Below, one piece after another: positions 1,390-60,790 of a stretch of DNA of 64,000 nucleotides (its first letter is position 1; every line of letters starts with the position of its first letter). Source of the DNA: a virus. The position numbers were made by a program, and so were the translations under genes. The stretch is from positions 1 to 64,000 of IMG/VR virus record IMGVR_UViG_3300046314_000223. One strand, given 5' to 3'. The notes under the pieces are model-generated. The model was not told where the DNA came from. It saw only the letters and a list, made by a program, of their open reading frames with translations, and made no database searches.

Positions 1390-3294
1390 ATGGCAACAAT
1401 CAATCGAATTAAGCGCTCAGAGACAGCAGGCAATCCACCTACGCTGGCTCAGGGCGAACTGGCATACTCTGCACTGGCAGACAACGGAGCAAACGGCGGT
1501 GACCGTCTGTATATTGGTATGGGCACTGAGACTGCTGGCGATGCAGTCAATCATGTGGTCATTGGTGGTAAATTCTTCACCGATAAGCTGGATCATGCCA
1601 ATGGCGTGGTCACGGCTGATTCTGCCTTGGTGGTTGATTCCAGCAAGAAGCTGGATGAACTGAATGTTGATAACGTCACCATCAATGGTAATACCGTCTC
1701 TACGACCGATACCAATGGCGACCTGATTCTTGCTCCAAATGGAACGGGTAAGGCTGTCATCTCTGGTAATGCATTCCCTAATACTCAGGGTATTGCTGAC
1801 CAGTATCTGAAGACCGATGGCGCTGGCGCTCTTTCTTGGGCTACCATTCCGTCCGGTTCGTTTACCATTGCTGGTGATACTGGCACTGACGTATTCACTA
1901 CCGGCGAAACGCTGACCGTTGTTGGCGGGGCTGACCTGACTTCTGTTGTCACTGACAATACCATCACAATCAATGCCGATGCATCGCTGGCTCGCCGTGC
2001 AGATGTCACCTATGTGGGTACGACTGAGATTGCGCTGAACCGTGCTTCTGGTTCTCAAGACCTGACCGGCATTACCGGATTGGTCTTGGATGGGTCCACT
2101 TCCGGCATCACAACCTTGGTTGCTTCTGCTGATGCTGGTGAGGAAACGATTACGCTTCCCGCTGCTACAGGTACTGTTGCTCTGACTAATCAGAAGCTTA
2201 ATACCTTTGCCGCCACGTCATCCGCTGAATTGGCTGGTGTTATCTCCGATGAGACTGGATCTGGTGCTCTGGTGTTTGGGACGTCCCCAACACTGGTTAC
2301 ACCTAACATTGGTGCAGCCACTGCCGATTCTATCACCGGTTCCGGTGCCCTGATCATCACTGCTGGTGGTTCCGATGCAAACGTGACTCTGGCTCCAACC
2401 GGAACGGGCTCCGTTGATGTATCGAACAAGCGAATCAGTTCTGTTGCCGAACCAACTCAAGCAACCGATGCTGCAACAAAGTCCTATGTGGATTCCAAGG
2501 CATCCGGTCTTGACCCAAAGGAATCAGTCAAAGCAGCTACGACAACCAGCATCACCCTGATTGGTCTGCAGACCGTTGATGGTGTTGGTCTGAGTAACGG
2601 CGATCGCGTTTTGGTTAAGGATCAGGCAACTGCATCCGAAAACGGCATTTATGTTGCAGATACCAATTCATGGGTTCGCTCCACGGATGCCAATGATTCC
2701 ACCAAGGTCACCCCCGGTCTGTTTACATTTGTCGAGCAGGGCGATACTCAGGCCGATACCGGCTGGACACTGGCTACGGATGGCGTAATCAACCTGAATG
2801 TAACTGACCTGTCTTTCACGCAATTCTCCAGCGCCGGATCGGTTGTTGCTGGAGCCGGTCTGACCAAGACGGGCAACACTCTGGACGTTGTTGTTGGTGG
2901 CGGCGTTGCTATCGTCGGTAACACTGTTCAACTGGATGCCACAGTTGCTGGCGGTGGCTTGACACTGACCTCTGGTGTTCTGAATGTGGTTGGCACGACA
3001 GATCGAATTGCTGTTGCTGCCGATTCGATTGACATTGCATCTACCTATGTTGGTCAGGCATCCATCACCACGGTTGGTACTCTGACTGCCGGTGAGTTGG
3101 GTTCTGGCTTCACAACGGTTGCTGTTGCTCAGGGCGGTACCGGCGCAACTTCCTTGACTGCTCGCGGTGTTGTGATTGGTAACGGAACGTCTGCTGTGTC
3201 TACGGTGGTATCTGGAACCGATGGTTCTGTGCTGATGGCGGATGCTACCGGCAACCCATACTGGTCTAACGTCATTGATGGCGGCACTTATTGA
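1390..3294 (+). CDS. Tail fibre-like structural protein
   Basis: 634 residues with a strong GGAGGT ribosome-binding site. The N-terminus (INRIKRSETAGNPPTLAQGE) is the type found on virion structural proteins of T4-like cyano- and pelagiphages. The body is beta-rich, low in Cys and Trp, with degenerate repeats such as NGDLILAPNGTGK and ANVTLAPTGTGSVDVSNKR, which suggest a trimeric fibre shaft. The C-terminal part carries AQGGTGATSLTARGVVIGNG, a motif common near the tips of phage fibres. Likely a long or side tail fibre; the receptor-binding role is inferred. Confidence 0.8.
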   Translation: MATINRIKRSETAGNPPTLAQGELAYSALADNGANGGDRLYIGMGTETAGDAVNHVVIGGKFFTDKLDHANGVVTADSALVVDSSKKLDELNVDNVTINGNTVSTTDTNGDLILAPNGTGKAVISGNAFPNTQGIADQYLKTDGAGALSWATIPSGSFTIAGDTGTDVFTTGETLTVVGGADLTSVVTDNTITINADASLARRADVTYVGTTEIALNRASGSQDLTGITGLVLDGSTSGITTLVASADAGEETITLPAATGTVALTNQKLNTFAATSSAELAGVISDETGSGALVFGTSPTLVTPNIGAATADSITGSGALIITAGGSDANVTLAPTGTGSVDVSNKRISSVAEPTQATDAATKSYVDSKASGLDPKESVKAATTTSITLIGLQTVDGVGLSNGDRVLVKDQATASENGIYVADTNSWVRSTDANDSTKVTPGLFTFVEQGDTQADTGWTLATDGVINLNVTDLSFTQFSSAGSVVAGAGLTKTGNTLDVVVGGGVAIVGNTVQLDATVAGGGLTLTSGVLNVVGTTDRIAVAADSIDIASTYVGQASITTVGTLTAGELGSGFTTVAVAQGGTGATSLTARGVVIGNGTSAVSTVVSGTDGSVLMADATGNPYWSNVIDGGTY

Positions 3295-3322
3295 TTACTG
3301 TCAATAGGTAAATACATACACA

Positions 3323-3343
3323 GGGGCTTCTTAGCCCCTTTTT
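3323..3343 (+). terminator. Rho-independent terminator after fibre gene
   Basis: Perfect 6-bp stem GGGGCT/AGCCCC with a TCTT loop followed by TTTTT. It lies 28 bases after the stop of the 634-residue fibre gene. Confidence 0.85.
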
Positions 3344-3367
3344 CTTTCCTTATTAGGACATTCGATA

Positions 3368-3670
3368 ATGCCACAACAGGTTATCTTAAAGAAGTCATCG
3401 GTCACATCCAAGATTCCAACAATCGGAGACTTGGAATTCGGTGAACTTGCAATCAATTATGCAGACGGTCGCCTTTATTACAAGGATTCGACTGTTGCAA
3501 TCAAATACTTCATCAATTCAGATCAGATAGCCGCTGCATATCAGCCAACATTGGTATCTGGGTCTAACATCAAAACGGTCAATGGTTTATCTCTGGTTGG
3601 CTCTGGAGATATCACTGTTGGTGGAGCATCAATCAGTGATGCAATGGCTGTTGCAATCGCACTAGGGTAA
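3368..3670 (+). CDS. Small fibre-family structural protein
   Basis: 100 residues. The N-terminus (MPQQVILKKSSVTSKIPTIG, then DLEFGELAINYADGRLYYKD) is a module that begins many T4-like cyanophage and pelagiphage virion proteins. Here it is almost the whole protein, followed by a short LTVNGLSLVGSGDITVGG-like segment typical of fibre tails. It may be a truncated fibre or a short adaptor. It sits just downstream of a terminator and may be read from its own promoter. Confidence 0.65.
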   Translation: MPQQVILKKSSVTSKIPTIGDLEFGELAINYADGRLYYKDSTVAIKYFINSDQIAAAYQPTLVSGSNIKTVNGLSLVGSGDITVGGASISDAMAVAIALG

Positions 3671-3675
3671 AGAAA

Positions 3676-4395
3676 ATGATCACATTGGCACTTGTATTGG
3701 AAGCCTTGGCTTATATCGGAATTGGGTTTGTTGGATTCCTCTTGTTTGCACATAATCCAATTATCCCAACTATCAGAATCCTGATGCTTCCGATCCCAGA
3801 CAAATTCAACTGCATTTTCTGTTTTTGGGGCGCATGGTTCCGTTCATTACTGACATTCATTCCAGACATTCTATCCCCAGTCATTGTTCCTATTGCCCTG
3901 TTGTTCACCAAGTGGGAAGATGACAAGTTACCATGGATTTTTTCTTGGTGGGATAATGATGCCAGTATCAATGGCGACGTCAGGACAGATGATTCGTCTG
4001 ATGGTAAGGATGGATGGGGGCTCAGGCATGTTCCTGTTGAGGATACACCAGAAGCCAGAGCCATGTGTTACTGGGCTAAAAACGCACACCCACGAAGTTT
4101 CAAGGCAAGGTATATCTGGTTGGGCTTGCGAAATCGTGCATCATACTTGTCAATGCTGCTGGGTAAAGATCACCCTCCGGTTGATGCTCAATTATGGGAA
4201 TCGGGTAATGCCTACAGACCTGATTATACTGGATGGCGAGTTCACCGAATCGGGAATATCTGGCGTTATTTTGAAACGGTCAAGGTCGGACCTATATTCT
4301 TCCGGTTTCATTATGGCTACAAGATTCCCAAGATTCCTCATTCCAAGGTTGCCATGGTGACTGCCATTGCATTCTCATTCCAGAAGGCAGACTGA
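3676..4395 (+). CDS. Membrane-anchored protein of unknown function
   Basis: 239 residues, starting 5 bases after the previous stop. Two hydrophobic N-terminal segments (about residues 2-26 and 53-77) flank a Cys/Trp-rich turn (FNCIFCFWGAWF), predicting two membrane passes. The soluble C-terminal part is rich in Trp, Arg and His (WAKNAHPRSFKARYIWLGLR). Similar proteins occur as uncharacterised genes in other phages. No enzymatic motif recognised. Confidence 0.6.
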   Translation: MITLALVLEALAYIGIGFVGFLLFAHNPIIPTIRILMLPIPDKFNCIFCFWGAWFRSLLTFIPDILSPVIVPIALLFTKWEDDKLPWIFSWWDNDASINGDVRTDDSSDGKDGWGLRHVPVEDTPEARAMCYWAKNAHPRSFKARYIWLGLRNRASYLSMLLGKDHPPVDAQLWESGNAYRPDYTGWRVHRIGNIWRYFETVKVGPIFFRFHYGYKIPKIPHSKVAMVTAIAFSFQKAD

Positions 4396-4396
4396 T

Positions 4397-4738
4397 ATGG
4401 TCAAGTATAGAAACATTTTCATCTACCCACACTCTCCCTACTCTCAGGTCATTACGATCAAGAATCCAGACCAGACAGTAGATGATGTCACTGGATATAC
4501 AGGCAGAATGTATCTGGCAAAGCATCATGAATCGGCCACCAAGTATGCGGTTGACCTGATCATCGAAAATGCTGCTGGCGGGATGATGAAGGCATCATTG
4601 GCTCCCGAGTCAACTGCAATATTGCCGGTCGGAACCATGATGTATTCTGTTTTCGTCACCCCTCCCGGCGATGAAGAACGGCTGATTATGCAGGGGGCAG
4701 CGGTTATTGAACCTACCATCCACCCGGCGTTACCATAA
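4397..4738 (+). CDS. Ig-like / BppU-N-like small structural protein
   Basis: 113 residues from ATG 4397; an upstream ATG at 4367 would overlap the previous gene and is less likely. The pattern of an N-terminal strand, DVTGYTGRMYLAKHH, 'PESTAILPVGTMMYSVFVT' and a final GAAVIEP strand matches the layout of baseplate-upper-protein N-terminal domains (DUF2479/BppU_N type) that connect fibres to baseplates. The assignment is by fold pattern only. Its last 9 bases overlap the convergent terminase gene. Confidence 0.5.
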   Translation: MVKYRNIFIYPHSPYSQVITIKNPDQTVDDVTGYTGRMYLAKHHESATKYAVDLIIENAAGGMMKASLAPESTAILPVGTMMYSVFVTPPGDEERLIMQGAAVIEPTIHPALP

Positions 4739-6898
4739 TCCACTGGACTGTCTGACCTGCCATACATCACCGTTGAATATGACGGTTTCTTCCTCTATTG
4801 CTGGCATTCCATCATCCAAGAATCCGATTGGGGCTAATTGCTCATCAAATTCCTCAATCTGCTTCTTGATGAATGCCTGCCTCAGTGAGAAGTCGAACAG
4901 TTCTCGGAACACAGCCTCCTGCACCAAGTAACCAAACATCACCAAGCACATAACCAAGTCATCATGCTTGCCTTCTTCTGCCTTGTATGACGTTCCTGAC
5001 CGGGTGAACGTGGAAAGTTCCTCCAGAATCTCATGGTCATTTATGATCAGGTGATCCGATTCAACCAATGTCTTTAGTTGGTCACACCCAATGGCCTTGG
5101 TTCTCTTGGTGGTTCTGATGCCCGGAGTCTTTTGCTTGCCACCAGCACCTTCCTTAATTTTGTCATTGACTGACATATAGACATTTTCATATTCCAAGTC
5201 ATAGAAAAGAATATCAGCAACCTGCTGACCAAGGTCATTGGTTTCTATCAGGACAAAGGCATCATTAAATCGTTTGGCGACTTTCATTATTACCTCTGGA
5301 TACATCAGAGTGTTGATTGAGTTGCAGCTAAACTTGGCAACAATTTTATATGGCATCTGGTTGATATCAAATACCACAAAGGCCGATGAGTCCAAGTCAG
5401 CACCTCTGGCCGTATCGACTGTGATGACATAGTTCCCTCCGGGAGAATCTGTGGTCTTCTTGATCGGGGGTTCAAATTCGGTGTAGTTTGGAAACAGAAC
5501 ATTTCCGGTCTTGTGTGGAATCTGAGCCAGCTTTCCGCCTGAGATTAGTGTATAGCTACTTCCTTGGAAAACACAGTTGTGATGGACAATTCCATCCGCA
5601 ATGTATGAATTTGTTGGATTCTTTACGTTTACCGGATCATACAGAGTCGTAAACGAGTCCTCGGACGTTACACAAACAACTCTAACTCCATTAGACAGCT
5701 TTGTTGTTGGCTTTAGGGATTTTGCCTTGATGAAACCTTTGTTGGTTTTAACAAGATGATCTGTTGAACAAATCAGCGTCTTTCCGGTATTGACTGTGAT
5801 CTGGACGTTGGTTTTCTTCTGCTTAACGGATATACCATCAAAATTACACCAGCCGTAATCGGTCATGATCTGATACTTGGAATCAGACGACATATCAATC
5901 AGTCGATATGCTTCTGTCATGGATGCGGAAATTTCCTTGTTTGTATTGGTGTCCTTTAATTGAATGATACTGTCCCCATGCAGGCATTCCACCTCTTGAG
6001 CAAACTTAACTGGTCCGAGAATGGAAAATTGTTCGTCTGCCCATGCTTGAGTTCTCTTTGGGTGCTGCTTCCAACTTGTATATACTGGGTGGAATCCATT
6101 AATCCCTTGTTCAGCCTCGACCCACATCTTGTAGAAATGATTCATACCATTTGGGGTGGACACAATAATCATCTTGGATGATTCAGCAGAAGAAATCGTC
6201 GGGAATACAGATGCAATGAACTCATCCGCCAATCCGGGACGCAGGAATGCAAATTCGTCCAATGCCAATAGGGAAATTGAGCTACCTCGAACAGCAGAGG
6301 CGGATGTGGCAGCGCATGATACCTTGGAGCCGTTCTCCAACATGAACGATGTCTTGTTCCATTCCTTGACGCCCTGCTGAAGCCATTTTGGACACGCTTC
6401 GATGATGAATTGGACTCGGGAGAAAATGTCCTTGGCCGTATTCATCTTGTTTGCCAAGATCATGGAGTTCTTAGAATCATTGAACAATGTATACCATGCA
6501 ATATATCCAGCCAAGGTTGTGGAGTTGTGCGACAATATTCCGTTGGTGTAGTATCTATGGTCTTCAGAATCAACGGACAGATCATACATATTTTCGATGA
6601 TTCCCGTATTTGCCACGGATTTCACCGACTCCAGCCCAACATCGGTATAAATTTTTTGACCCGGAATCAAGTCCTTGACGAAAACTTCCTCATGATCTGA
6701 TGTGAATACAATGTGTGTATCCGCACAACCAAGCGAATACCCATTATCCAAGACCAATCGGTATTTGGTATATTCTATGGTCTTATTGGCCGAAAGTATT
6801 GGTTGATACCCAGAATCCGTCAGAATTTCCCAATCAGAGACGTCAAACTTCTCTATAAACTTTCTCTCTACACCGTCAGATAATTTATTTTTGCCCAT
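4730..6898 (-). CDS. terL: Terminase large subunit, C-terminal half (split-intein C-part plus second mini-intein)
   Basis: 722 residues. Residues 1-125 are a C-intein ending ILSHN; residues 126-304 continue the gp17-type ATPase from STTLAGYIAW and include Walker B (LLALDEFAF). Residues 305-441 are a second, uninterrupted intein starting Cys-Leu-His-Gly-Asp and ending HHN before Cys. Residues 442-722 are the nuclease half, with acidic motifs VDTARG, IETNDLG and GKHDDLVM, equivalent to the metal-binding acidic residues of T4 gp17. With the N-half at 7999-8379, removing both inteins gives about 549 residues, compared with 610 for T4 gp17. The protein is the ATP-driven motor and headful nuclease of DNA packaging. 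The gene runs opposite to gp18-gp23. Confidence 0.93.
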   Translation of the reverse strand: MGKNKLSDGVERKFIEKFDVSDWEILTDSGYQPILSANKTIEYTKYRLVLDNGYSLGCADTHIVFTSDHEEVFVKDLIPGQKIYTDVGLESVKSVANTGIIENMYDLSVDSEDHRYYTNGILSHNSTTLAGYIAWYTLFNDSKNSMILANKMNTAKDIFSRVQFIIEACPKWLQQGVKEWNKTSFMLENGSKVSCAATSASAVRGSSISLLALDEFAFLRPGLADEFIASVFPTISSAESSKMIIVSTPNGMNHFYKMWVEAEQGINGFHPVYTSWKQHPKRTQAWADEQFSILGPVKFAQEVECLHGDSIIQLKDTNTNKEISASMTEAYRLIDMSSDSKYQIMTDYGWCNFDGISVKQKKTNVQITVNTGKTLICSTDHLVKTNKGFIKAKSLKPTTKLSNGVRVVCVTSEDSFTTLYDPVNVKNPTNSYIADGIVHHNCVFQGSSYTLISGGKLAQIPHKTGNVLFPNYTEFEPPIKKTTDSPGGNYVITVDTARGADLDSSAFVVFDINQMPYKIVAKFSCNSINTLMYPEVIMKVAKRFNDAFVLIETNDLGQQVADILFYDLEYENVYMSVNDKIKEGAGGKQKTPGIRTTKRTKAIGCDQLKTLVESDHLIINDHEILEELSTFTRSGTSYKAEEGKHDDLVMCLVMFGYLVQEAVFRELFDFSLRQAFIKKQIEEFDEQLAPIGFLDDGMPAIEEETVIFNGDVWQVRQSSGLW
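5576..5986 (-). other. Mini-intein in TerL (continuous, second site)
   Basis: 137-residue in-frame insertion. It starts at Cys (codon 5986-5984) after FAQEVE and ends at Asn (5578-5576) before CVFQGSS; the joined product reads QEVECVFQGSS, which matches T4 gp17 around YECEFLGSS. It has intein block A (CLHGDS), block B (ICSTDHLV), block F/G (IADGIVHHN) and Cys+1. No endonuclease domain is present. From memory, the site and sequence resemble the atypically split AceL-TerL intein, but here the intein is one piece. Confidence 0.9.
6524..6898 (-). other. C-intein of split TerL intein
   Basis: First 125 residues of the C-terminal terminase ORF. It contains block B-like CADTHIVFTSDH, a DLIPGQ block D-like turn, and the C-terminal YTNGILSHN followed by Ser+1. 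It pairs with a 37-residue N-intein at 8002-8112, so the break lies near the N-terminus of the fold (atypical split). Confidence 0.88.
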
Positions 6899-6908
6899 TC
6901 GTATTCTT

Positions 6909-7970
6909 CTAATATGTCGTTTTCTGATTTTGATTCAACGTAGTTTGCCAATTCATTGCCGAGACTCCCCTAAGAGTCTCGCTGAAACCAAATACGCCAT
7001 GTTGCTCTGCTAGTGTGATTGTCTTATCGGAAAAATCGTGCTTGACCAAACATTCCAATTTGGCAATTAGGTCAAGATCGCCTTCCATTGTATATACAAC
7101 CTCACAACCATCCATTTGCTTCTTGGTATATCGCTGGTCCATTCTGCGTGAAGTGATTCCAAATTTCAGGAGGTCATTTGGAAGTGAGACCATATAGAAC
7201 AGCCCCTTGATATTTACGTAAAGATCAGAGTCAATCAGACCGTAGTTGGTATTGATTGCTTTCCGGCGATTGATGTCTTGAATTTCCTCTGGGGATTTGG
7301 AGTTCATGACCCCAATCCATTTGCTCTGTCTCTCTTTCCAGATTCTGCGACCTTCTTTCTCACCATGCTTCTTTATACAAACTTCCAGAGAAAATGTCCT
7401 CTGTCGGTCAGATAGTGCAAGTTCAGCTTCCCGTTGAGACATTCCTTTGGACAGATAGTATTCTATTCTTGTGGATTCATTTTGTGGATTTGCTGCCTTT
7501 GTTTCTTTAGCTGCATCAGCAGTTTCTCGAATTTTCTGAGCCTTTTCTTCCTCAGTCAACCCATCGTATTTTAGGAATTTATCTGAGAACGCGGAAAATT
7601 TGCCTCCGTGTTGGTATCCGGGATTTTTCTCACCTTTTATTGAATCTTTCCGCGTCTGGCATATAACTTCAGCATTGTATTTTGCTTTATATTCATCTAC
7701 AGTCAACCCATGTGTATATACGTGTCTGGCAATACTCGTTGCTTGCATCCCACATAATTTACACTCCACATATTCGTCTGGATGGGCATCTATAAATTTT
7801 GATATAGTCGATACTCGTCGCCGCTCATTTAATTTAATTTTCTGTGCCTGTTTATATGCTTCATCAGCAACCATTGAACATTTGGCTGAGCACGTAACCC
7901 TTTTGTAGTTTCCAGTTGGTGACGTTAACACGCCCTCGCATATTTTGCAAGTTTTTTGAATTGGTTCCAT
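6909..7970 (-). CDS. Free-standing GIY-YIG homing endonuclease with zinc fingers
   Basis: 353 residues, located between the two halves of the broken terminase gene, with only 28 and 10 bases of spacing. The N-terminus has a four-Cys cluster (CKIC...CSAKC). A MucR/Ros-like finger follows (CKLCGMQ...RHVYTHG, then VDEYKAKYN), a DNA-binding module often found in phage homing enzymes. The C-terminal region (GLFYMVSLPNDLLKFGITSR followed by ..RYTKKQ and ..AKLECLVKHDF) fits a GIY-YIG-type nuclease of the T5orf172 kind, with FYMV, KFGIT and the catalytic Glu. It probably cleaves intein-less terminase alleles and spreads the split arrangement. Confidence 0.8.
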   Translation of the reverse strand: MEPIQKTCKICEGVLTSPTGNYKRVTCSAKCSMVADEAYKQAQKIKLNERRRVSTISKFIDAHPDEYVECKLCGMQATSIARHVYTHGLTVDEYKAKYNAEVICQTRKDSIKGEKNPGYQHGGKFSAFSDKFLKYDGLTEEEKAQKIRETADAAKETKAANPQNESTRIEYYLSKGMSQREAELALSDRQRTFSLEVCIKKHGEKEGRRIWKERQSKWIGVMNSKSPEEIQDINRRKAINTNYGLIDSDLYVNIKGLFYMVSLPNDLLKFGITSRRMDQRYTKKQMDGCEVVYTMEGDLDLIAKLECLVKHDFSDKTITLAEQHGVFGFSETLRGVSAMNWQTTLNQNQKTTY

Positions 7971-7998
7971 AATAAATCTCCAAAATCAAGAGTTGTAA

Positions 7999-8379
7999 TT
8001 ATACAACATCAGAATCCCTCTTTACCATGGAATGAAACTCAGCAGCGGAAATTTCCATTATTTCCCCGGTTTTTTTGTTCCTTATCGTGTATTTTGTGTC
8101 GCCTTCGTGACACTTGCCCATCTGCCGGGGTAACTTACCGACAGTTTTCCGATTCTCATGAAAAGACAGAATCAGTTCCTTCTGATACCCAAACAACTTA
8201 AATGGGACAACCCCATCATCCAATGAAATGATCCGACCATATACCTCCAAGAAATAAATTGGGTCTTTGGAGCACTTTTCATATTCAAGTATTTGATCCT
8301 GAGTAAACTGAATAGATTCCCCAACTTGCTTCAGATGTGGATTGTTCAGGTAACCCTTGGGTGTTTTTTGTATAGCCAT
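7999..8379 (-). CDS. terL: Terminase large subunit, N-terminal half plus split N-intein
   Basis: 126 residues. Residues 1-89 are the gp17 N-terminus, ending in the Walker A-like PRQMGK; residues 90-126 begin with Cys (CHEGDTKYTI) and form a very short 37-residue N-intein ending at TAA. The Walker A loop is finished only after trans-splicing to STT at the start of the C-extein (RQMGK-STT, compared with SRQLGKTT in T4 gp17). Neither half can bind ATP normally alone, so packaging depends on splicing. No large terminase copy without the break is seen in the window. Confidence 0.92.
   Translation of the reverse strand: MAIQKTPKGYLNNPHLKQVGESIQFTQDQILEYEKCSKDPIYFLEVYGRIISLDDGVVPFKLFGYQKELILSFHENRKTVGKLPRQMGKCHEGDTKYTIRNKKTGEIMEISAAEFHSMVKRDSDVV
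8002..8112 (-). other. N-intein of split TerL intein (37 residues)
   Basis: The N-intein begins at Cys (codon 8112-8110) directly after Lys of the Walker A motif and stops after KRDSDVV. Canonical N-inteins are about 90-110 residues, so a 37-residue N-piece with a 125-residue C-piece is an atypical N-terminal split. Confidence 0.85.
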
Positions 8380-8458
8380 AATGTTCTTTTAAGTAAAGTC
8401 GCCATGATTCAGATGGCATGGTGCAATTTACTTATTGGATGGCAGAAAACAAAAAAGC

Positions 8459-11089: not shown

Positions 11090-13846
11090 ATGCAACTGAA
11101 TATCTTTGGCTTTGAAATTCGCAAGACTCCAGAAGCGCCCGCCTTGGTTCCCGAGAACAAGGCGGATGGTGCCATTGAGCAATTCACTGGCGCTGGTGCT
11201 GCTCATTATGCCCATGTTTTTGACATCAATGGGCGCCTGAATGATGATGTCGCCAAGATTAATCGTTATCGCCAATTGTCTCATGTTGCCGAAATCGACA
11301 GTGCAATTGAGGAAATCGTCACCGAAGCCATTGTTGTAGAAGAAGAAAAGCTGCCGGTTCAGGTTAACGTGGTTGCCGGGGATGAGACTATCCCAGAACA
11401 GATCAAAGAAGCCATTGTAGAGGAATTCAAGAACATACTGGCTCTGATGGAATTCAACACCGAAGGACATGACCTTTTCCGGCGATGGTATGTTGATGGT
11501 CGTCTGTATGGACAGATGTTGGTTGACGAATCCGACTTGGCTGCAGGTATCAAAGATATTCGATTTATTGACCCCCGTAAGATCAAGAAAGTTCGTGAGA
11601 TTCAACGTCAGAAAAATTCTGCTGGCGTTGACATCATCACCGGAACCACTGAATATTTTGCGTTCAATGATGCAGGCATTAACGCCACGACAAATGCTGC
11701 CATCAAGCTGTCCCCGGACAATATCATCTATGCGCCATCTGGTATTACAGATGAATCCGGTGAGACGATCGGATATTTAAATAAAACGATCAAACCAGCC
11801 AATATGCTCCGATATATGGAGGATGCGGTGTTGGTTTATACCTTGGCTCGGGCACCTGAGCGCCGGGTCTTTTACATTGATGTGGCAGATATCCCCAAAC
11901 AGAAAGCCGATCAGTATATCCGAGATGTGATGGCTCGGTATAAGAACAAAGTTGTTTACAACCAAGCTACGGGTGAAATTTCCGATGATCGAATCCACCA
12001 GTGTCTGGTAATGGATACCAAGGTTCCTCTGCTGGATGGGCGCACCCTGACTCTGACCGAAATCGCCAATGAATACAAAGACAAGGAACTGTGGGCATAT
12101 TCATGCGACCCAGTGACTGGTAAATTTGCTCCCGGAAAAATCACATGGGCTGGCGTTTCTCGTCCAGATGCAGAGATTATTCGTCTGACACTGGATAACG
12201 GCAAGACTATTGATTGCACCCATGAACACCAATTCCCCGTATGGGGTAAGAACTTGGTTCAGGCCAAGGATTTGGTTGTTGGTGATTCGATGATTCCTCT
12301 GTATCGGAAGAAGGCTCAAATCAGCCAAGCAAACAAGTATGGGTATGAGCAGTTGTTTGACAACGAAAACAAAAAATGGGTATTCACACATCGAGCAGTT
12401 TCCGCATGGAAAGACGCCAACTCACTTGAGAATGAATTTGTCTTTGATCCAAAATTCATTGATGCCGAAAAGAAAACGGTTCATCATATGAATTGCAAGC
12501 CTCTTGACAATTCCCCCAATAATTTGTTCCGCATGAACAACGGAGACCATAACAAATGGCATCATGCAAATGGCGCAATTGCCGGAAGTTTTGGTGGTAA
12601 GCGTGCTGCAGAACTTGGGATACCCCAAGAGAATTATGCCAAGGGTCGTCGCATTTTTTCTGAAATGATGCAAGACCCAGAGTTCCATGCAAAATTCTGT
12701 GAAGGTCAGAAAAACAATTGGACTCCAGAACAAAAGGAACGTCAATCTGGAGTTGCCAAGAATATCAACCTGAGCGCTCGTGGCAATGCCGCCAAACAGG
12801 AACTCTTTAAGACCAATGAAAAACAAGATCAGCATAAGCAGATGTATGCAACTGCATATAGTCAGTCTATGTATGATGCGGTTGTTTCTTGTGCAAAGTC
12901 TGGAATGACAAAGGATGCTGCCGCCAAATTCATGACTGAATCCTCTGGTTTGCTATTGACATTCATTGAACTCAATAGCTCTAAGTGCGTTAGCTCTGGA
13001 CAAAAATCATTTGATAGATTCACCAAATATGATGTTGTCCGAATTGCCAAAGAATATGCAGACACGACATACAAGGAACTTGGAGATCAGTTCAAATACA
13101 GGAATCACAAAATTGTCAAGATTGAGTATCTGAGCGAAAGACAAGATACCGGTTGCTTGACAATTGATGGCAATGAGGAATTCCATAACTACCATACCTT
13201 TGCTTTGGATGCTGGAATTTATACAAAAAACTCATTATTGGAGGATTATTGGATGCCCCGCAGATCGAATGGGCGCTCCACGGAAATCACCACGCTCCCC
13301 GGCTCATCCATTATGTCCAATATGGATAATGTGAATTACTTCTTGAACAAGTTGTATGCTGCCCTGAACGTCCCAATGTCAAGGATGAAAGCAGACGCCG
13401 GGTTTAACTTGGGAAGAACCAGTGAAATCACACGGGACGAAATCAAGTTCAATAAATTCGTATCCAGACTTCGCCGCAAGTTCTCTGAGGTGTTCTATCA
13501 GGCTCTGCGCGTTCAGTTGATTCTGAAGGGAATCATTGCCCCGGAAGACTGGCAGTTTATCAAGTCCAAGATTAACTTTGACTTCCTTAGAGACAACTAC
13601 TTCTCTGAACTCAAGGACAATGAAATCCTGACCGGGAGAATTCAGATGGCTGAAATGATTCAGCCTTATATGGACAAGTATTACTCTCATAAATATGTCA
13701 GAACCATGATCCTCAAGCAGACTGAGGAAGAAATGGAAGACATGGATAAGGAACGGGAGATTGAAATGAAGCAGCATCCCGAGTGGTTTATGCCTCCGGG
13801 GATGGATATGGGTGGCTCTCCCGGTCAGTCAGAACAGCAGCAATAA
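11090..13846 (+). CDS. gp20: Portal protein with embedded HNH intein
   Basis: 918 residues. Residues 1-304 and 715-918 match T4 gp20: FDINGRLNDDVAKINRYRQL, IDSAIEEIVTEAIV, and after the insert SLLEDYWMPRRSNGRSTEI then TLPGSSIM. Without the 410-residue intein the portal is about 508 residues (T4 gp20 is 524). The dodecameric portal is the DNA entry channel, the head-tail junction and the docking site for terminase. The intein lies just before the conserved LLEDYW segment, so splicing is needed for head assembly. Confidence 0.95.
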   Translation: MQLNIFGFEIRKTPEAPALVPENKADGAIEQFTGAGAAHYAHVFDINGRLNDDVAKINRYRQLSHVAEIDSAIEEIVTEAIVVEEEKLPVQVNVVAGDETIPEQIKEAIVEEFKNILALMEFNTEGHDLFRRWYVDGRLYGQMLVDESDLAAGIKDIRFIDPRKIKKVREIQRQKNSAGVDIITGTTEYFAFNDAGINATTNAAIKLSPDNIIYAPSGITDESGETIGYLNKTIKPANMLRYMEDAVLVYTLARAPERRVFYIDVADIPKQKADQYIRDVMARYKNKVVYNQATGEISDDRIHQCLVMDTKVPLLDGRTLTLTEIANEYKDKELWAYSCDPVTGKFAPGKITWAGVSRPDAEIIRLTLDNGKTIDCTHEHQFPVWGKNLVQAKDLVVGDSMIPLYRKKAQISQANKYGYEQLFDNENKKWVFTHRAVSAWKDANSLENEFVFDPKFIDAEKKTVHHMNCKPLDNSPNNLFRMNNGDHNKWHHANGAIAGSFGGKRAAELGIPQENYAKGRRIFSEMMQDPEFHAKFCEGQKNNWTPEQKERQSGVAKNINLSARGNAAKQELFKTNEKQDQHKQMYATAYSQSMYDAVVSCAKSGMTKDAAAKFMTESSGLLLTFIELNSSKCVSSGQKSFDRFTKYDVVRIAKEYADTTYKELGDQFKYRNHKIVKIEYLSERQDTGCLTIDGNEEFHNYHTFALDAGIYTKNSLLEDYWMPRRSNGRSTEITTLPGSSIMSNMDNVNYFLNKLYAALNVPMSRMKADAGFNLGRTSEITRDEIKFNKFVSRLRRKFSEVFYQALRVQLILKGIIAPEDWQFIKSKINFDFLRDNYFSELKDNEILTGRIQMAEMIQPYMDKYYSHKYVRTMILKQTEEEMEDMDKEREIEMKQHPEWFMPPGMDMGGSPGQSEQQQ
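12002..13231 (+). other. HNH-containing intein in portal protein
   Basis: 410 residues, portal residues 305-714. The N-terminus is CLVMDTKVPLLDGR (block A); block B is DCTHEHQFPVWG. A central HNH nuclease motif (TVHHMNCKPLDNSPNNLFRM, about residues 463-482 of the ORF, then NKWHHANG) is followed by helical DNA-binding-like segments. The C-terminus reads YTKN before Ser+1. The residue before the terminal Asn is Lys rather than the usual His, which may slow Asn cyclisation or need a compensating residue. Confidence 0.92.
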
Positions 13847-55711: not shown

Positions 55712-56338
55712 ATGGTTGAAAATTTGCTCTTGGTTGAAAAATACCGCCCACGTTCTGTCTCCGATTGCATCCTGCCTGCACGAATCAAGGACTCCATTCA
55801 GGATGCCATTGACTCCAATAACCTTCAGCATATGATTTTTCATGGGCCTGCCGGGGCAGGTAAGACCAGCCTAGCCAAGGCAATCTGTGGGGATATCTCA
55901 GGCGACATGCTGTATATCAATGCATCCAATGAGACTGGCATTGATGTGGTGCGAAACAAGGTATCCAACTTTGCATCCACCATGTCATTCGATGGTAACA
56001 TGAAGGTTGTCTTGTTGGATGAATGTCTGTCCGAAGATGAGACTGTTCGTGTTGGACATACTGACCTGTGGAAACCTGTTGCTCTGAAAGAACTTGAGCT
56101 TGGTCAAGAGTACCCGATTGTGTCATTCAATGAATCAACGCAAGAATTTGAGAATGATACTGGCTCTATAATTTCCGATAAGGTGGATGATATGTATGAG
56201 GTGATGCTGGATAGCGGAAAAACTATCGTCTGCAACAAGAAGCACCCTTTTATGTGTCAGTCTCCAGATGGTTCAATTGTCCAGCGCACGATTGAAGAAG
56301 GTCTGGATGGTTACTTGGTGATTGTTGCCAATGATTGA
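55712..56338 (+). CDS. gp44: Clamp loader ATPase, N-terminal part plus split N-intein
   Basis: 208 residues. Residues 1-104 are the gp44/RFC-type AAA+ N-terminus: LLVEKYRPRSVSDCILP, Walker A GPAGAGKTS and Walker B VVLLDE. Residues 105-208 start with Cys (CLSEDETVRVG) and form a 104-residue, very acidic N-intein ending at TGA. The break falls inside the DExx box region: after splicing the protein reads LLDECDRLSSSAQ. Clamp loading thus depends on trans-splicing with the product of 57217-57963. Total extein 311 residues, T4 gp44 319. Confidence 0.92.
   Translation: MVENLLLVEKYRPRSVSDCILPARIKDSIQDAIDSNNLQHMIFHGPAGAGKTSLAKAICGDISGDMLYINASNETGIDVVRNKVSNFASTMSFDGNMKVVLLDECLSEDETVRVGHTDLWKPVALKELELGQEYPIVSFNESTQEFENDTGSIISDKVDDMYEVMLDSGKTIVCNKKHPFMCQSPDGSIVQRTIEEGLDGYLVIVAND
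56024..56335 (+). other. N-intein of split gp44 intein
   Basis: 104 residues from Cys (56024-56026). Block A CLSEDETVRV, block B-like VCNKKHPFMCQ, acidic throughout (ESTQEFENDTGS). The matching 41-residue C-intein is basic, a charge split typical of canonical split inteins. Confidence 0.9.
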
Positions 56339-57200
56339 TGCAATTGCGGATCAATATCGACTGATTCATGCAAAGTCTCGTCAGTGGCCGAATCTGAGTA
56401 ATTCGGTTCCGGTTGCTGCCATTCAGCATGAACAGACATGCGCTAAGAGTCACCTGACTGAATCCGATGGGTTGGATCAATGGGTCAGGCAGAGCGATGT
56501 TGATTATCCGATTCGCTCCAGAACCATATTCTCTATGGGGCTGGACTATCTTCTTAGCCGAGGTGTTCATACTGATTGGATGGAGCGTCAGCATGACCAT
56601 CATCTGCAGCAATCGCATGCCTCAAATCTGACCGATATTGACAAGGATCATATCCAGAAGTTGATAATTGGTGGGATGGAATATGGACATGATTCTGACT
56701 CTGCCGACCTGACCAAGTTCTTGACTGATGCCTATAAGACTCGATCTAAGCCATCTTTGTTTGTCAGGAAGCACGTCAAGGATGTCAGTGTTCCTCCTGA
56801 CCAGATTGACCTGACCAAGGTGGATTCTGCGCTGGGTAAGAATACATTTGCCGATGGATTTCATTCATTTCATGGTATTGGATTTCATCCCGGAAAGTTG
56901 GTTGGCAATTCAGATATGTTGCATCTGCCAGCATATACTTCCGGGTCAGTCAATCGAAATATTGCCCTGAAATATGCTAAACTATCTCCTGTTGATGGAG
57001 CGCACCATGTCATTCATATGGTGCATCCCAAGGACTCAACCGGAGTCTACATCGGAAATCAATCGTTCCATGATAACGAAGTTCTGCTACCCAGAAACTT
57101 GACCCTGAAGATTCACCCCCATGAATCTGCCCGCTATGATGTGAATGGTAAACCAGTTCATGTCTGGGTTGCTCACCGAATCCCTTTTACCGAAATCTAA
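56331..57200 (+). CDS. ADP-ribosyltransferase-like protein in the gap of split gp44
   Basis: 289 residues from ATG 56331, overlapping the N-intein end by 8 bases. The C-terminal half has ART landmarks in order: a strand with Arg (KPSLFVRKHV, Arg146), HLPAYTSGSVNRNIALKYA (STS-like, 199-216), and HDNEVLLPRN with Glu250 (E/D-x-E site of the ARTT loop; here Asp248-x-Glu250), followed by LTLKIHP. These are the R-S-E elements of the Alt/ModA and mono-ART class. The N-terminal 110 residues are helical. No nuclease motif is visible, so it is not a homing endonuclease. Confidence 0.6.
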   Translation: MIDAIADQYRLIHAKSRQWPNLSNSVPVAAIQHEQTCAKSHLTESDGLDQWVRQSDVDYPIRSRTIFSMGLDYLLSRGVHTDWMERQHDHHLQQSHASNLTDIDKDHIQKLIIGGMEYGHDSDSADLTKFLTDAYKTRSKPSLFVRKHVKDVSVPPDQIDLTKVDSALGKNTFADGFHSFHGIGFHPGKLVGNSDMLHLPAYTSGSVNRNIALKYAKLSPVDGAHHVIHMVHPKDSTGVYIGNQSFHDNEVLLPRNLTLKIHPHESARYDVNGKPVHVWVAHRIPFTEI

Positions 57201-57216
57201 ACTCTTGAAAGTTCTC

Positions 57217-57339
57217 ATGTCTTCTTATACATTATGCAAGGTAAAGTCAATTCTCCCTCTTGGTCGCGGCAGGGTCATTAACCTTACCGTCAACAAGAAT
57301 CATACATTTGTCACTGGAAATGGCATTGTCACTCACAAT
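57217..57339 (+). other. C-intein of split gp44 intein
   Basis: 41 residues ending GNGIVTHN (Asn codon 57337-57339) before Cys+1. Contains NLTVNKNHTFV, the block F signature. The 104/41 split matches the canonical position used by DnaE- and gp41-type split inteins. Confidence 0.9.
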
Positions 57340-57963
57340 TGTGACCGCCTTTCCTCGTCTGCTCAGGACTCTCTGAAGGCAACCATGGAGCAGTTTGCCG
57401 GTGCAACGACTCGGTTTATCATGACCAGCAATAACAAGCAGAAGATCATTGCTCCGATCATGTCAAGGTCTACCATGTATGACTTCACCATGACCACGGA
57501 TGAGCGAAATGCCCTGATTCCTATTGCTTTCAAGAGAATCGCCACGATTCTGAAGGCAGAAAACATCGAATATGATCCCAAGTCGGTGGCATCTCTGGTT
57601 CAGAAGCACTATCCCGACATGCGGAAAACCTTGAATGAGATTCAACGATATTCCTCCAATGGAAAGATTGATGCGGGTATCTTGATTCAAGAGAACACCA
57701 CCACAGATGAACTGATTGGTTTCCTGAAGAACAAAAAGTTTGGGGATGTTCGCAAGTGGCTGGCTCGTAACCCGGACTTGGATCATCAGTTGCTTTTGCG
57801 ACACTTCTATGACAATCTGACGGAACTATTCACCCCTCAGACAATCCCAGAAGTCATCCTGATCCTGTCTCAGTATCAGTATTATGCATCTCGTGTGGTT
57901 GACCAAGAAATCAACACGATGGCATGTCTGATCGAAATGGTCAAGGGGTCAGAATGGAAGTAA
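57217..57963 (+). CDS. gp44: Clamp loader ATPase, C-terminal part plus split C-intein
   Basis: 248 residues from ATG 57217; an in-frame ATG at 57145 would overlap the ART-like gene. Residues 1-41 are a basic C-intein (MSSYTLCKVKSILPLGRGRV...GIVTHN) with Cys+1. Residues 42-248 continue gp44: CDRLSSSAQDSLKATMEQFA, FIMTSNNKQKIIAPIMSRS (sensor 1 and arginine-finger region) and the C-terminal collar domain. No other gp44 copy is seen. Confidence 0.92.
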   Translation: MSSYTLCKVKSILPLGRGRVINLTVNKNHTFVTGNGIVTHNCDRLSSSAQDSLKATMEQFAGATTRFIMTSNNKQKIIAPIMSRSTMYDFTMTTDERNALIPIAFKRIATILKAENIEYDPKSVASLVQKHYPDMRKTLNEIQRYSSNGKIDAGILIQENTTTDELIGFLKNKKFGDVRKWLARNPDLDHQLLLRHFYDNLTELFTPQTIPEVILILSQYQYYASRVVDQEINTMACLIEMVKGSEWK

Positions 57964-59560: not shown

Positions 59561-60790
59561 ATGCCAACAATCCTTAAAGCTTATAAGTACCGGGTTTACC
59601 CGACTCAGGTGCAGGCTGAGTTCCTTGATAGGAACTTTGGAGCAGTGCGTTTCCTCTGGAATCAGTTCGTAAGTTCTTTCAATGGGTGTGATAGAGGTCC
59701 GGTCCTACCTGAGAACGAGAAAATCCTGAAAGACAGGAATCTCTGGATGCACGACGTTATCTCCTATGCCCTCCAGCAAAAGAGGATGGACTGGTTTGAA
59801 TTCAAGAAGCAATACTTTAGCAAGAAACGTAAAACGAAGTTAGGTAGACCATCCTATAAGAAACGTGGTGTTTCTAATGATTCTTTCCGGTTACCCGGAG
59901 CATGCATCGGTTTCAACGCCGGAGTCAACTTCGACAAGGGTACTTTGAAAATCCCTAAGATGGCTCCATTAAAAGTCGTTTATGATAGGGAATTTAGTGG
60001 TCAACTTCGTTCGGTAACTCTTTCAAAGAACAAATGTAATCAATATTTCGTTTCAATACTTGTTGAAACTGAAGTAGAAATAAAACAAAATACCGGTCGC
60101 TCAATCGGTATTGATCTTGGTCTAAAGCATCTTTGTATCCTGTCAAATGGGATCAAAATCGACAATCCAAGATGGTTTCGTGAAACTCAAGCGAAACTAA
60201 AAAGAGCACAGCAGCATTTTAGTCGCAAGACTAAAGGGTCGTCAAGGTACAATCAGCAACGATTAAAGGTAGCAAAGCTACATTTGAAAGTTGCAAATCA
60301 AAGAAAAGACTTCCAACATAACTTTTCGACATGGTTAGTCAACAACTACGATACGATCCTCACCGAGGACTTGAACGTCAAAGGGATGGTTAAGAATCGT
60401 AGGTTAGCTAAGTCGATTAGTGATGCTTCATGGTCTTCATTGGTCTCCATGATCGCTTATAAGTCAAACTGGTACGGTCGAAGCTTCCATAAGATCGATC
60501 GTTGGTACCCTTCGTCGAAAACTTGTAGTTCATGTGGTCATAAAGAGACTAACATGGGATTACATGTTCGTGACTGGAAATGCCCAAGTTGTGGAACTGA
60601 ACATGATCGTGACTTGAATGCTGCTGTAAACATTTTACATAAGGGTCTTGATGATCTTTATGGATTTAAAACATCGGAAGAATTATCCGATTACAGGCGC
60701 GGAGAAGACATAAGACCCGAGGCAGTAACGCCGAAGGCACCTTCGTTGAACCGTCTAGTCAGTTTTATCGATTTTGATAGAACGACGTAA
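59561..60790 (+). CDS. tnpB: TnpB (OMEGA RNA-guided nuclease)
   Basis: 409 residues. N-terminal wedge/REC region LKAYKYRVYPTQVQAEFLDR and VRFLWNQFV; RuvC residues Asp185 (SIGIDLGLKH), Glu269 (LTEDLNVKGM) and Asp351 (HDRDLNAAVN); zinc ribbon Cys322/325/341/344 (TCSSCG...CPSCG) between RuvC II and III. All catalytic residues are intact. The ~50-residue tail after RuvC III is probably also part of the omega RNA gene. TnpB is an RNA-guided nuclease that helps its element persist. Codon use (TCT, CGT, ATC) differs somewhat from neighbours, suggesting transfer. Confidence 0.93.
   Translation: MPTILKAYKYRVYPTQVQAEFLDRNFGAVRFLWNQFVSSFNGCDRGPVLPENEKILKDRNLWMHDVISYALQQKRMDWFEFKKQYFSKKRKTKLGRPSYKKRGVSNDSFRLPGACIGFNAGVNFDKGTLKIPKMAPLKVVYDREFSGQLRSVTLSKNKCNQYFVSILVETEVEIKQNTGRSIGIDLGLKHLCILSNGIKIDNPRWFRETQAKLKRAQQHFSRKTKGSSRYNQQRLKVAKLHLKVANQRKDFQHNFSTWLVNNYDTILTEDLNVKGMVKNRRLAKSISDASWSSLVSMIAYKSNWYGRSFHKIDRWYPSSKTCSSCGHKETNMGLHVRDWKCPSCGTEHDRDLNAAVNILHKGLDDLYGFKTSEELSDYRRGEDIRPEAVTPKAPSLNRLVSFIDFDRTT
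60640..60760 (+). ncRNA. Candidate omega RNA overlapping tnpB 3' end
   Basis: In known TnpB elements the guide RNA scaffold is encoded in the 3' end of tnpB and next to the right end. Here the 3' end holds GGC-AGTAAC-GCC and the hairpin CGAAGG-CA-CCTTCG (60732-60745) followed by TTGAAC. The scaffold and guide boundaries cannot be set by eye; a guide would then lie inside the tnpB tail or hsp20. Confidence 0.35.

Follow-up and report, generated by a model that had tools for sequence, protein, structure and literature searches.

A viral terL gene fractured at Walker A by a predicted split intein with a nuclease gene between its halves, and relatives that carry a nuclease in an overlapping frame

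We analyzed the DNA-packaging motor gene terL, encoding the terminase large subunit (TerL), of a bacterial virus in a window that corresponds to bases 1-64000 of the linear IMG/VR virus record IMGVR_UViG_3300046314_000223 (90,772 bases). The gene lies in two pieces on the minus strand, the order on the coding strand being N-piece, nuclease gene and C-piece. Very probably, this is a fractured terL whose product is rebuilt by one trans-splicing and one cis-splicing event and whose intervening nuclease is a homing endonuclease. This reading is built on direct observations, namely the split itself, the junction residues, the HINT fold of the C-intein, the sites that are empty in relatives, the family of the nuclease and its repeated occurrence in this position. 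The window represents, with its GIY-YIG-type nuclease, a widespread family of fractured terL genes; this split Walker A family is itself a new point, and the strongest new points come from the relatives of the window.

The break falls at the Walker A motif, with PRQMGK before it and STT after it (site a). The N-piece gene (7999-8379, on the minus strand like all features of this locus) encodes 126 residues and gives the only PHROG terminase large subunit match of its kind in the record. Its residues 1-89 form the N-extein (8113-8379), which ends in ...LPRQMGK and thus includes the Walker A lysine, and the remaining 37 residues, from Cys1 to DVV and the stop codon, form N-intein a (8002-8112), which reads CHEGDTKYTIRNKKTGEIMEISAAEFHSMVKRDSDVV. 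The C-piece gene (4730-6898, 722 residues), with Pfam matches to Terminase_6N, Terminase_6C and Intein_splicing, opens with C-intein a (6524-6898, residues 1-125), whose end, ...TNGILSHN, is followed by Ser. The middle extein (5987-6523, residues 126-304) runs from STTLAGY... to ...FAQEVE and holds the ATPase part with Walker B, as indicated by the T4 gp17 match and an ungapped alignment. It is followed by a continuous mini-intein, intein b (5576-5986, residues 305-441), which interrupts TerL at QEVE/CVFQG (site b), and by the C-terminal extein with the nuclease domain (4733-5575, residues 442-722, starting CVFQGSS...), recognized by Terminase_6C and T4 gp17. Both pieces belong to a T4-type TerL, as PHROG terminase profiles were found in the N-piece and in the C-piece by profile search and T4 gp17 matched the window TerL with E=1.6e-69. 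The genes around terL are also T4-like, with tail sheath and tail tube and then the portal. As no second N- or C-part of terL was found in the whole 90,772-base record, a full-length copy elsewhere, which would have spoken against the initial annotation, is absent from this record. The sole terL of the record carries both inteins; therefore, one trans- and one cis-splicing event would be needed to produce TerL, as that annotation had proposed.

The identity of the split intein was supported by its junctions, a profile score and the fold of its C-part. The 37-residue N-intein a scored 52.9 bits against an independent profile made from other members of the family, while the best of 925 scored shuffles reached 9.2. 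C-intein a modeled alone with AlphaFold2 gave a predicted local distance difference test score (pLDDT) of 91 and the fold of a HINT domain. In Foldseek, its best structural match was VidaL (E=1.6e-8, 33% identity, root-mean-square deviation 1.0 A), followed by gp41-1 and the atypically split Cat intein; 56 PDB matches were obtained at E<=0.001 and, among the matches listed, all were inteins or intein-like domains. Block B (ADTH, residues 59-62) and blocks F and G, with SHN before Ser+1, are all within C-intein a, and the family alignment agrees with these assignments. The window split intein therefore shows the features of the atypical S2 class: a short N-intein with Cys1 and block A, and a C-intein with blocks B, F and G. 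Intein b, a stretch of 137 residues from CLHGDS to GIVHHN followed by Cys, lacks an endonuclease; it matches inteins, CatC among them (E=0.0024), and shares 25% identity with C-intein a. By established intein chemistry, Cys1/Ser+1 at site a and Cys1/Cys+1 at site b predict class 1 splicing for both.

The proposed boundaries are also those at which related proteins have no insertion. We searched IMG/VR with the joined extein, and 80 loci were returned. In 78 of them, the joined extein matched as a single uninterrupted stretch; the two others, L008 and L009, come from two other assemblies and have the arrangement of the window, every piece being 99-100% identical. When the joined extein of the window was aligned with 77 intein-free proteins, there were zero gaps at either junction; one of these, L002, reads FRQSGKSTTVAGFIAWY. 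The insertion-free phages called for by the initial annotation thus exist, and both the split intein and the second, continuous intein that it had described are absent from these relatives, so that residues 90-126 of the N-piece and 305-441 of the C-piece are not part of a normal terminase.

The gene between the two halves (6909-7970, 353 residues) had been described as a GIY-YIG gene with zinc fingers, a description that motifs and relatives support. It is preceded by its own GGAG ribosome-binding site, the C-piece gene having a weaker one. A zinc-finger pattern CxxC...CxxxC occupies residues 8-31, a match to ROS/MUCR (MucR finger) residues 56-99, and residues ~106-237 form a module common to nucleases of other phages. 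The C-terminus can be aligned with GIY-YIG domains of the T5orf172 type; a T5orf172 match was obtained for five of the nine aligned members (best 1.2e-7), and Y259, K269, G271, I272 and T273 (KxGIT), R280 and E306 are invariant in the alignment. Relatives of this nuclease occupy the same position in split TerL genes of other phages, and in Caulobacter phage Cr30 a relative is free-standing just upstream of an uninterrupted terL. We conclude that it is most likely the homing endonuclease of the split element, a function that is predicted.

According to this model, the N-intein (37 residues) and the C-intein (125 residues) would associate and rebuild a HINT domain, which would join ...RQMGK to STTLAGY... 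via Cys1, the terminal Asn and Ser+1 and so restore the P-loop. The C-piece would in addition shed its 137-residue mini-intein by cis-splicing, using Cys1, Asn and Cys+1. The free-standing GIY-YIG-type nuclease would cut an intein-free terL at the P-loop, and the element could spread in this way during co-infection. Because site a directly follows the Walker A lysine, the ATPase site should not be able to form before trans-splicing; with its ATP-binding loop broken, the motor should be unable to hydrolyze ATP until then.

Several points weigh against this account. Both splicing events, DNA cleavage and homing are steps that we infer. The nuclease of the window searched alone (P0003) gave no significant GIY-YIG Pfam match, its structural model was poor (pLDDT 62) and no significant fold match was found at E<=0.001; the GIY-YIG assignment of this protein, probable as it appears, thus draws on motifs and on relatives. 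Moreover, the Thr usual in the TxxH of block B is replaced by Ala in C-intein a, although this Ala is invariant across the family. Loss of the Thr was considered as a sign of decay and rejected because the Ala-Asp-x-His of block B is invariant in the 22-row family alignment. Two alignments were built without rows from named phage records.

We also considered whether the nuclease could lie in a group I or II intron that is removed from the messenger RNA, leaving one continuous intein. Precedents exist, as a similar terL, that of Campylobacter phage IBB_35, was described as interrupted by an intein and by an intron that carries a homing endonuclease (PMC3322345), and a T5orf172 gene adjoins a spliced intron in terL of phage ICP1 (PMC10448857). 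Nevertheless, a search with Rfam found no intron family in 6700-8400 with E values up to 10 allowed, and none at E up to 1 in L085, L088, L098 and L099, of which three are split loci and one has an intact terL adjoining a nuclease gene. The non-coding sequence on the two sides of the nuclease open reading frame (ORF) amounts to only 28 and 10 bases, which leaves no room for an intron core outside the nuclease. Furthermore, the frame relation of the two TerL halves differs among loci, and the C-piece of many phages begins with a conserved start context, LSDxxERKF. An intron therefore appears very unlikely.

A TerL working as two chains, without protein splicing, would resemble a genes-in-pieces enzyme such as the ribonucleotide reductase that is split by a homing endonuclease and functional as two chains, a case cited in PMC10448857. 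Here, however, the P-loop itself is broken and conservation of the intein residues extends across the family, and we consider this possibility highly improbable. Finally, the record comes from a metagenome as a linear contig that may be incomplete, which could suggest a decaying pseudogene or an assembly error; however, the arrangement is repeated in two other assemblies, the pieces are intact with all motifs, and 58 non-redundant groups are organized alike. This last explanation, to which we give practically no weight, is already largely refuted by the independent contigs. A fractured terL rebuilt by protein splicing thus remains the best explanation for the window.

To place the window among its relatives, we scanned with a C-intein alignment, keeping the best 80 of 309 relatives, and with the shared nuclease module, keeping the best 80 of 167; together with named phages, this yielded 117 non-redundant groups. 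The Walker A intein is split in 70 of them. In 58 groups the two TerL halves are encoded by separate ORFs that flank the nuclease module (four of the 58 are also apparently broken by frameshifts), and in 12 the intein is split without a recognized nuclease, one of these, L092, resembling a sequencing frameshift in a named phage. A continuous intein was found in 11 groups, including L165, in which a nested HNH ORF was later detected; four other groups have a continuous intein with a nested nuclease of the shared-module type, and in six an uninterrupted terL adjoins a nuclease gene, as in Cr30. The junctions are conserved in the family, GK then Cys upstream and HN then Thr or Ser downstream, and so is the split point, with a median N-intein of ~40 residues and C-inteins mostly of 120-125 residues. 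The nuclease was within 3 kb of a TerL match in 58 of 60 nuclease groups, most often between the terL halves, a proportion that cannot be taken as unbiased for the nuclease family as a whole because the scan retained the closest relatives of terL-linked seeds. In L088, the split TerL halves enclose, in addition to the EDxHD-like ORF, a second nuclease-like ORF of 542 residues (4326-5954) with a weak Vsr match.

Several TerL inteins per gene are common in this collection, and the pairing of a split intein a with a continuous intein b, as in the window, is only one of numerous combinations. In seven groups both site a and site b hold split inteins, in others there are inteins near Walker B, and three TerL inteins are present in L137 and in L219. 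In Salicola phage SCTP-2 (L096) and in L083 and L084, we noticed a TerL middle piece with a C-intein at its start and an N-intein, at the Walker B site, at its end; TerL would therefore be in at least three pieces in these loci, where the N-piece is not nearby. In Vibrio phage VP-1 (L100:3500-6842), an intein at the second TerL site has its N-part joined in frame to a GIY-YIG-like protein, while its C-part is a separate ORF; the close relative BX-1 (L094) is without this second-site intein.

Four loci with a continuous intein, L174 (same group as L236), L232, L233 and L234, have a single ORF that runs from the N-extein through the N-intein and C-intein into the following extein; the nuclease ORF (278-313 codons) is nested wholly within it in the +1 frame. 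Across the nuclease, the TerL frame contains zero stops in all four, against 15-23 expected from synonymous recoding with the gene's own codon usage (2000 recodings per locus). None of the 2000 recodings was stop-free in any locus, and the third frame carries 23-34 stops. In split loci, the equivalent of this TerL frame contains the expected number of stops (ratio 1.00). The avoidance is a specific one: T at the third position before AA, AG or GA occurs 0 times in 444 in the four overprinted genes, which are EDxHD-like, against 37% elsewhere in them, and in split loci the same comparison gave 35% and 36%. In L165, a continuous Walker A intein is likewise overprinted in the +1 frame, here by an unrelated HNH homing-endonuclease-like ORF (2788-3684, 299 codons), with zero stops against 15.9 expected. 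A truncated remnant of this HNH ORF was seen in L168 (5792-6028). We infer that both frames are translated in the overprinted loci. For the EDxHD-like cases, the tree needs four changes to overprinting and well supported branches force at least three, with a one-clade test (p=0.128) that does not reject a single origin. The overprinted nuclease, present in five groups and of two unrelated types (EDxHD-like and HNH), is a new point; no report of an out-of-frame nuclease inside an intein was found in the literature searched. Separately, stop depletion in the nuclease of the window was tried as a relic of overprinting and rejected, with 25 stops observed and 27.4 expected.

Taken together, we think it probable that the Walker A TerL inteins form a single mobile family, in which a nuclease is carried, at the same loop, either by fracture into a trans-splicing pair or by overprinting, in the +1 frame, of an intein whose own frame stays open and which still splices in cis; this would show at a single site how inteins become split. 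Split inteins are mostly known singly. Here, one site in an essential gene presents, in many different phages, continuous, overprinted, split-with-nuclease and split-without-recognized-nuclease forms, and the steps become comparable and testable. In addition, the ~70 natural pairs with a short N-intein are a resource for protein labeling.

The nucleases of the family also differ in their catalytic part. Among 78 nuclease rows, the C-terminal motif is GIY-YIG-type in 18 and EDxHD-like in 46. On the shared-module tree, 13 changes are required to explain the GIY label and at least three are forced by well supported branches, the exact number being uncertain because the module is short (127 columns); the EDxHD-like L156 and the GIY L231 are sisters with a support of 100/96. 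GIY-YIG and EDxHD-like catalytic modules are exchanged on a shared middle region, which is a further new point, and homing nucleases may in this way keep their target site while changing their chemistry.

Other elements of the window were noted besides terL. The clamp-loader (gp44-like) gene contains a second split intein of this phage, with ORFs at 55712-56338, 56322-57200 and 57145-57963, all on the plus strand: the N-piece ends ...VVLLDE and continues with CLSEDETV and an N-intein of ~105 residues, and the C-piece reads ...GIVTHN and then CDRLSSSAQ. The two pieces cover PHROG 168 at 7-109 and 108-313, and the 292-residue ORF between them has no Pfam or PHROG match. The portal (gp20-like) gene (11090-13846, plus strand, 918 residues) has a continuous intein at about residues 305-717 with an HNH-like part, and 59561-60790 (plus strand) encodes an IS605 OrfB/TnpB-like protein with a Cas12f1-like domain.

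Compared with known systems, the rarity suggested by the initial annotation, which named a single known atypically split TerL intein, AceL-TerL, was too strong, considering GOS-TerL, the continuous inteins of Ackermannviridae, the 70 split groups of our survey and the frequency of multi-intein terL genes. The fractured genes of Dassa et al. (2009), a study cited in PMC10448857, reportedly have a free-standing homing endonuclease between the two halves of a split intein, and these nucleases reportedly belong to the EDxHD (Vsr-like) family. The window has the same order of N-part, nuclease and C-part; its catalytic part is instead GIY-YIG-type, while most of its relatives are EDxHD-like.

A review lists GOS-TerL (37+115 residues, Ser1/Cys+1) beside AceL-TerL (PMC11766414). 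AceL-TerL, GOS-TerL and the engineered Cat-TerL have N-inteins of 25, 37 and 30 residues and C-inteins of 104, 115 and 104 residues, respectively, and the two natural ones are split after helix alpha-1 (PMC11766414, PMC13014065). Like the split intein of the window, all three combine a phage terL with a short N-intein and a long C-intein; GOS-TerL is also of S2 type with an N-intein of the same length as N-intein a. They differ in having Cys+1, whereas the split intein of the window has Ser+1 at Walker A and its intein b has Cys+1 but is unsplit. The homologous continuous inteins of Ackermannviridae (Kuja, VAP7-like, Dickeya and Escherichia phages) occupy the same Walker A site and are 42-48% identical over the C-intein, but they are in one ORF and have no nuclease gene within the intein. 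Campylobacter phage F379 (L099:3091-6437) has two terL pieces with a homologous nuclease of GIY-YIG type between them, 35% identical to that of the window; its terL reads as a split intein in the same P-loop, with a splice point three residues earlier, PRQ|C...HN|SSKSTT. Finally, in ShiLan a published HNH lies out of frame within an insertion of a phage methylase gene, and this insertion was found to be neither intein nor intron (PMC11855218). As in L165, L174, L232, L233 and L234, the nuclease is in another frame of an insertion that is stop-free in the host frame, but in these five loci that insertion is an intein.

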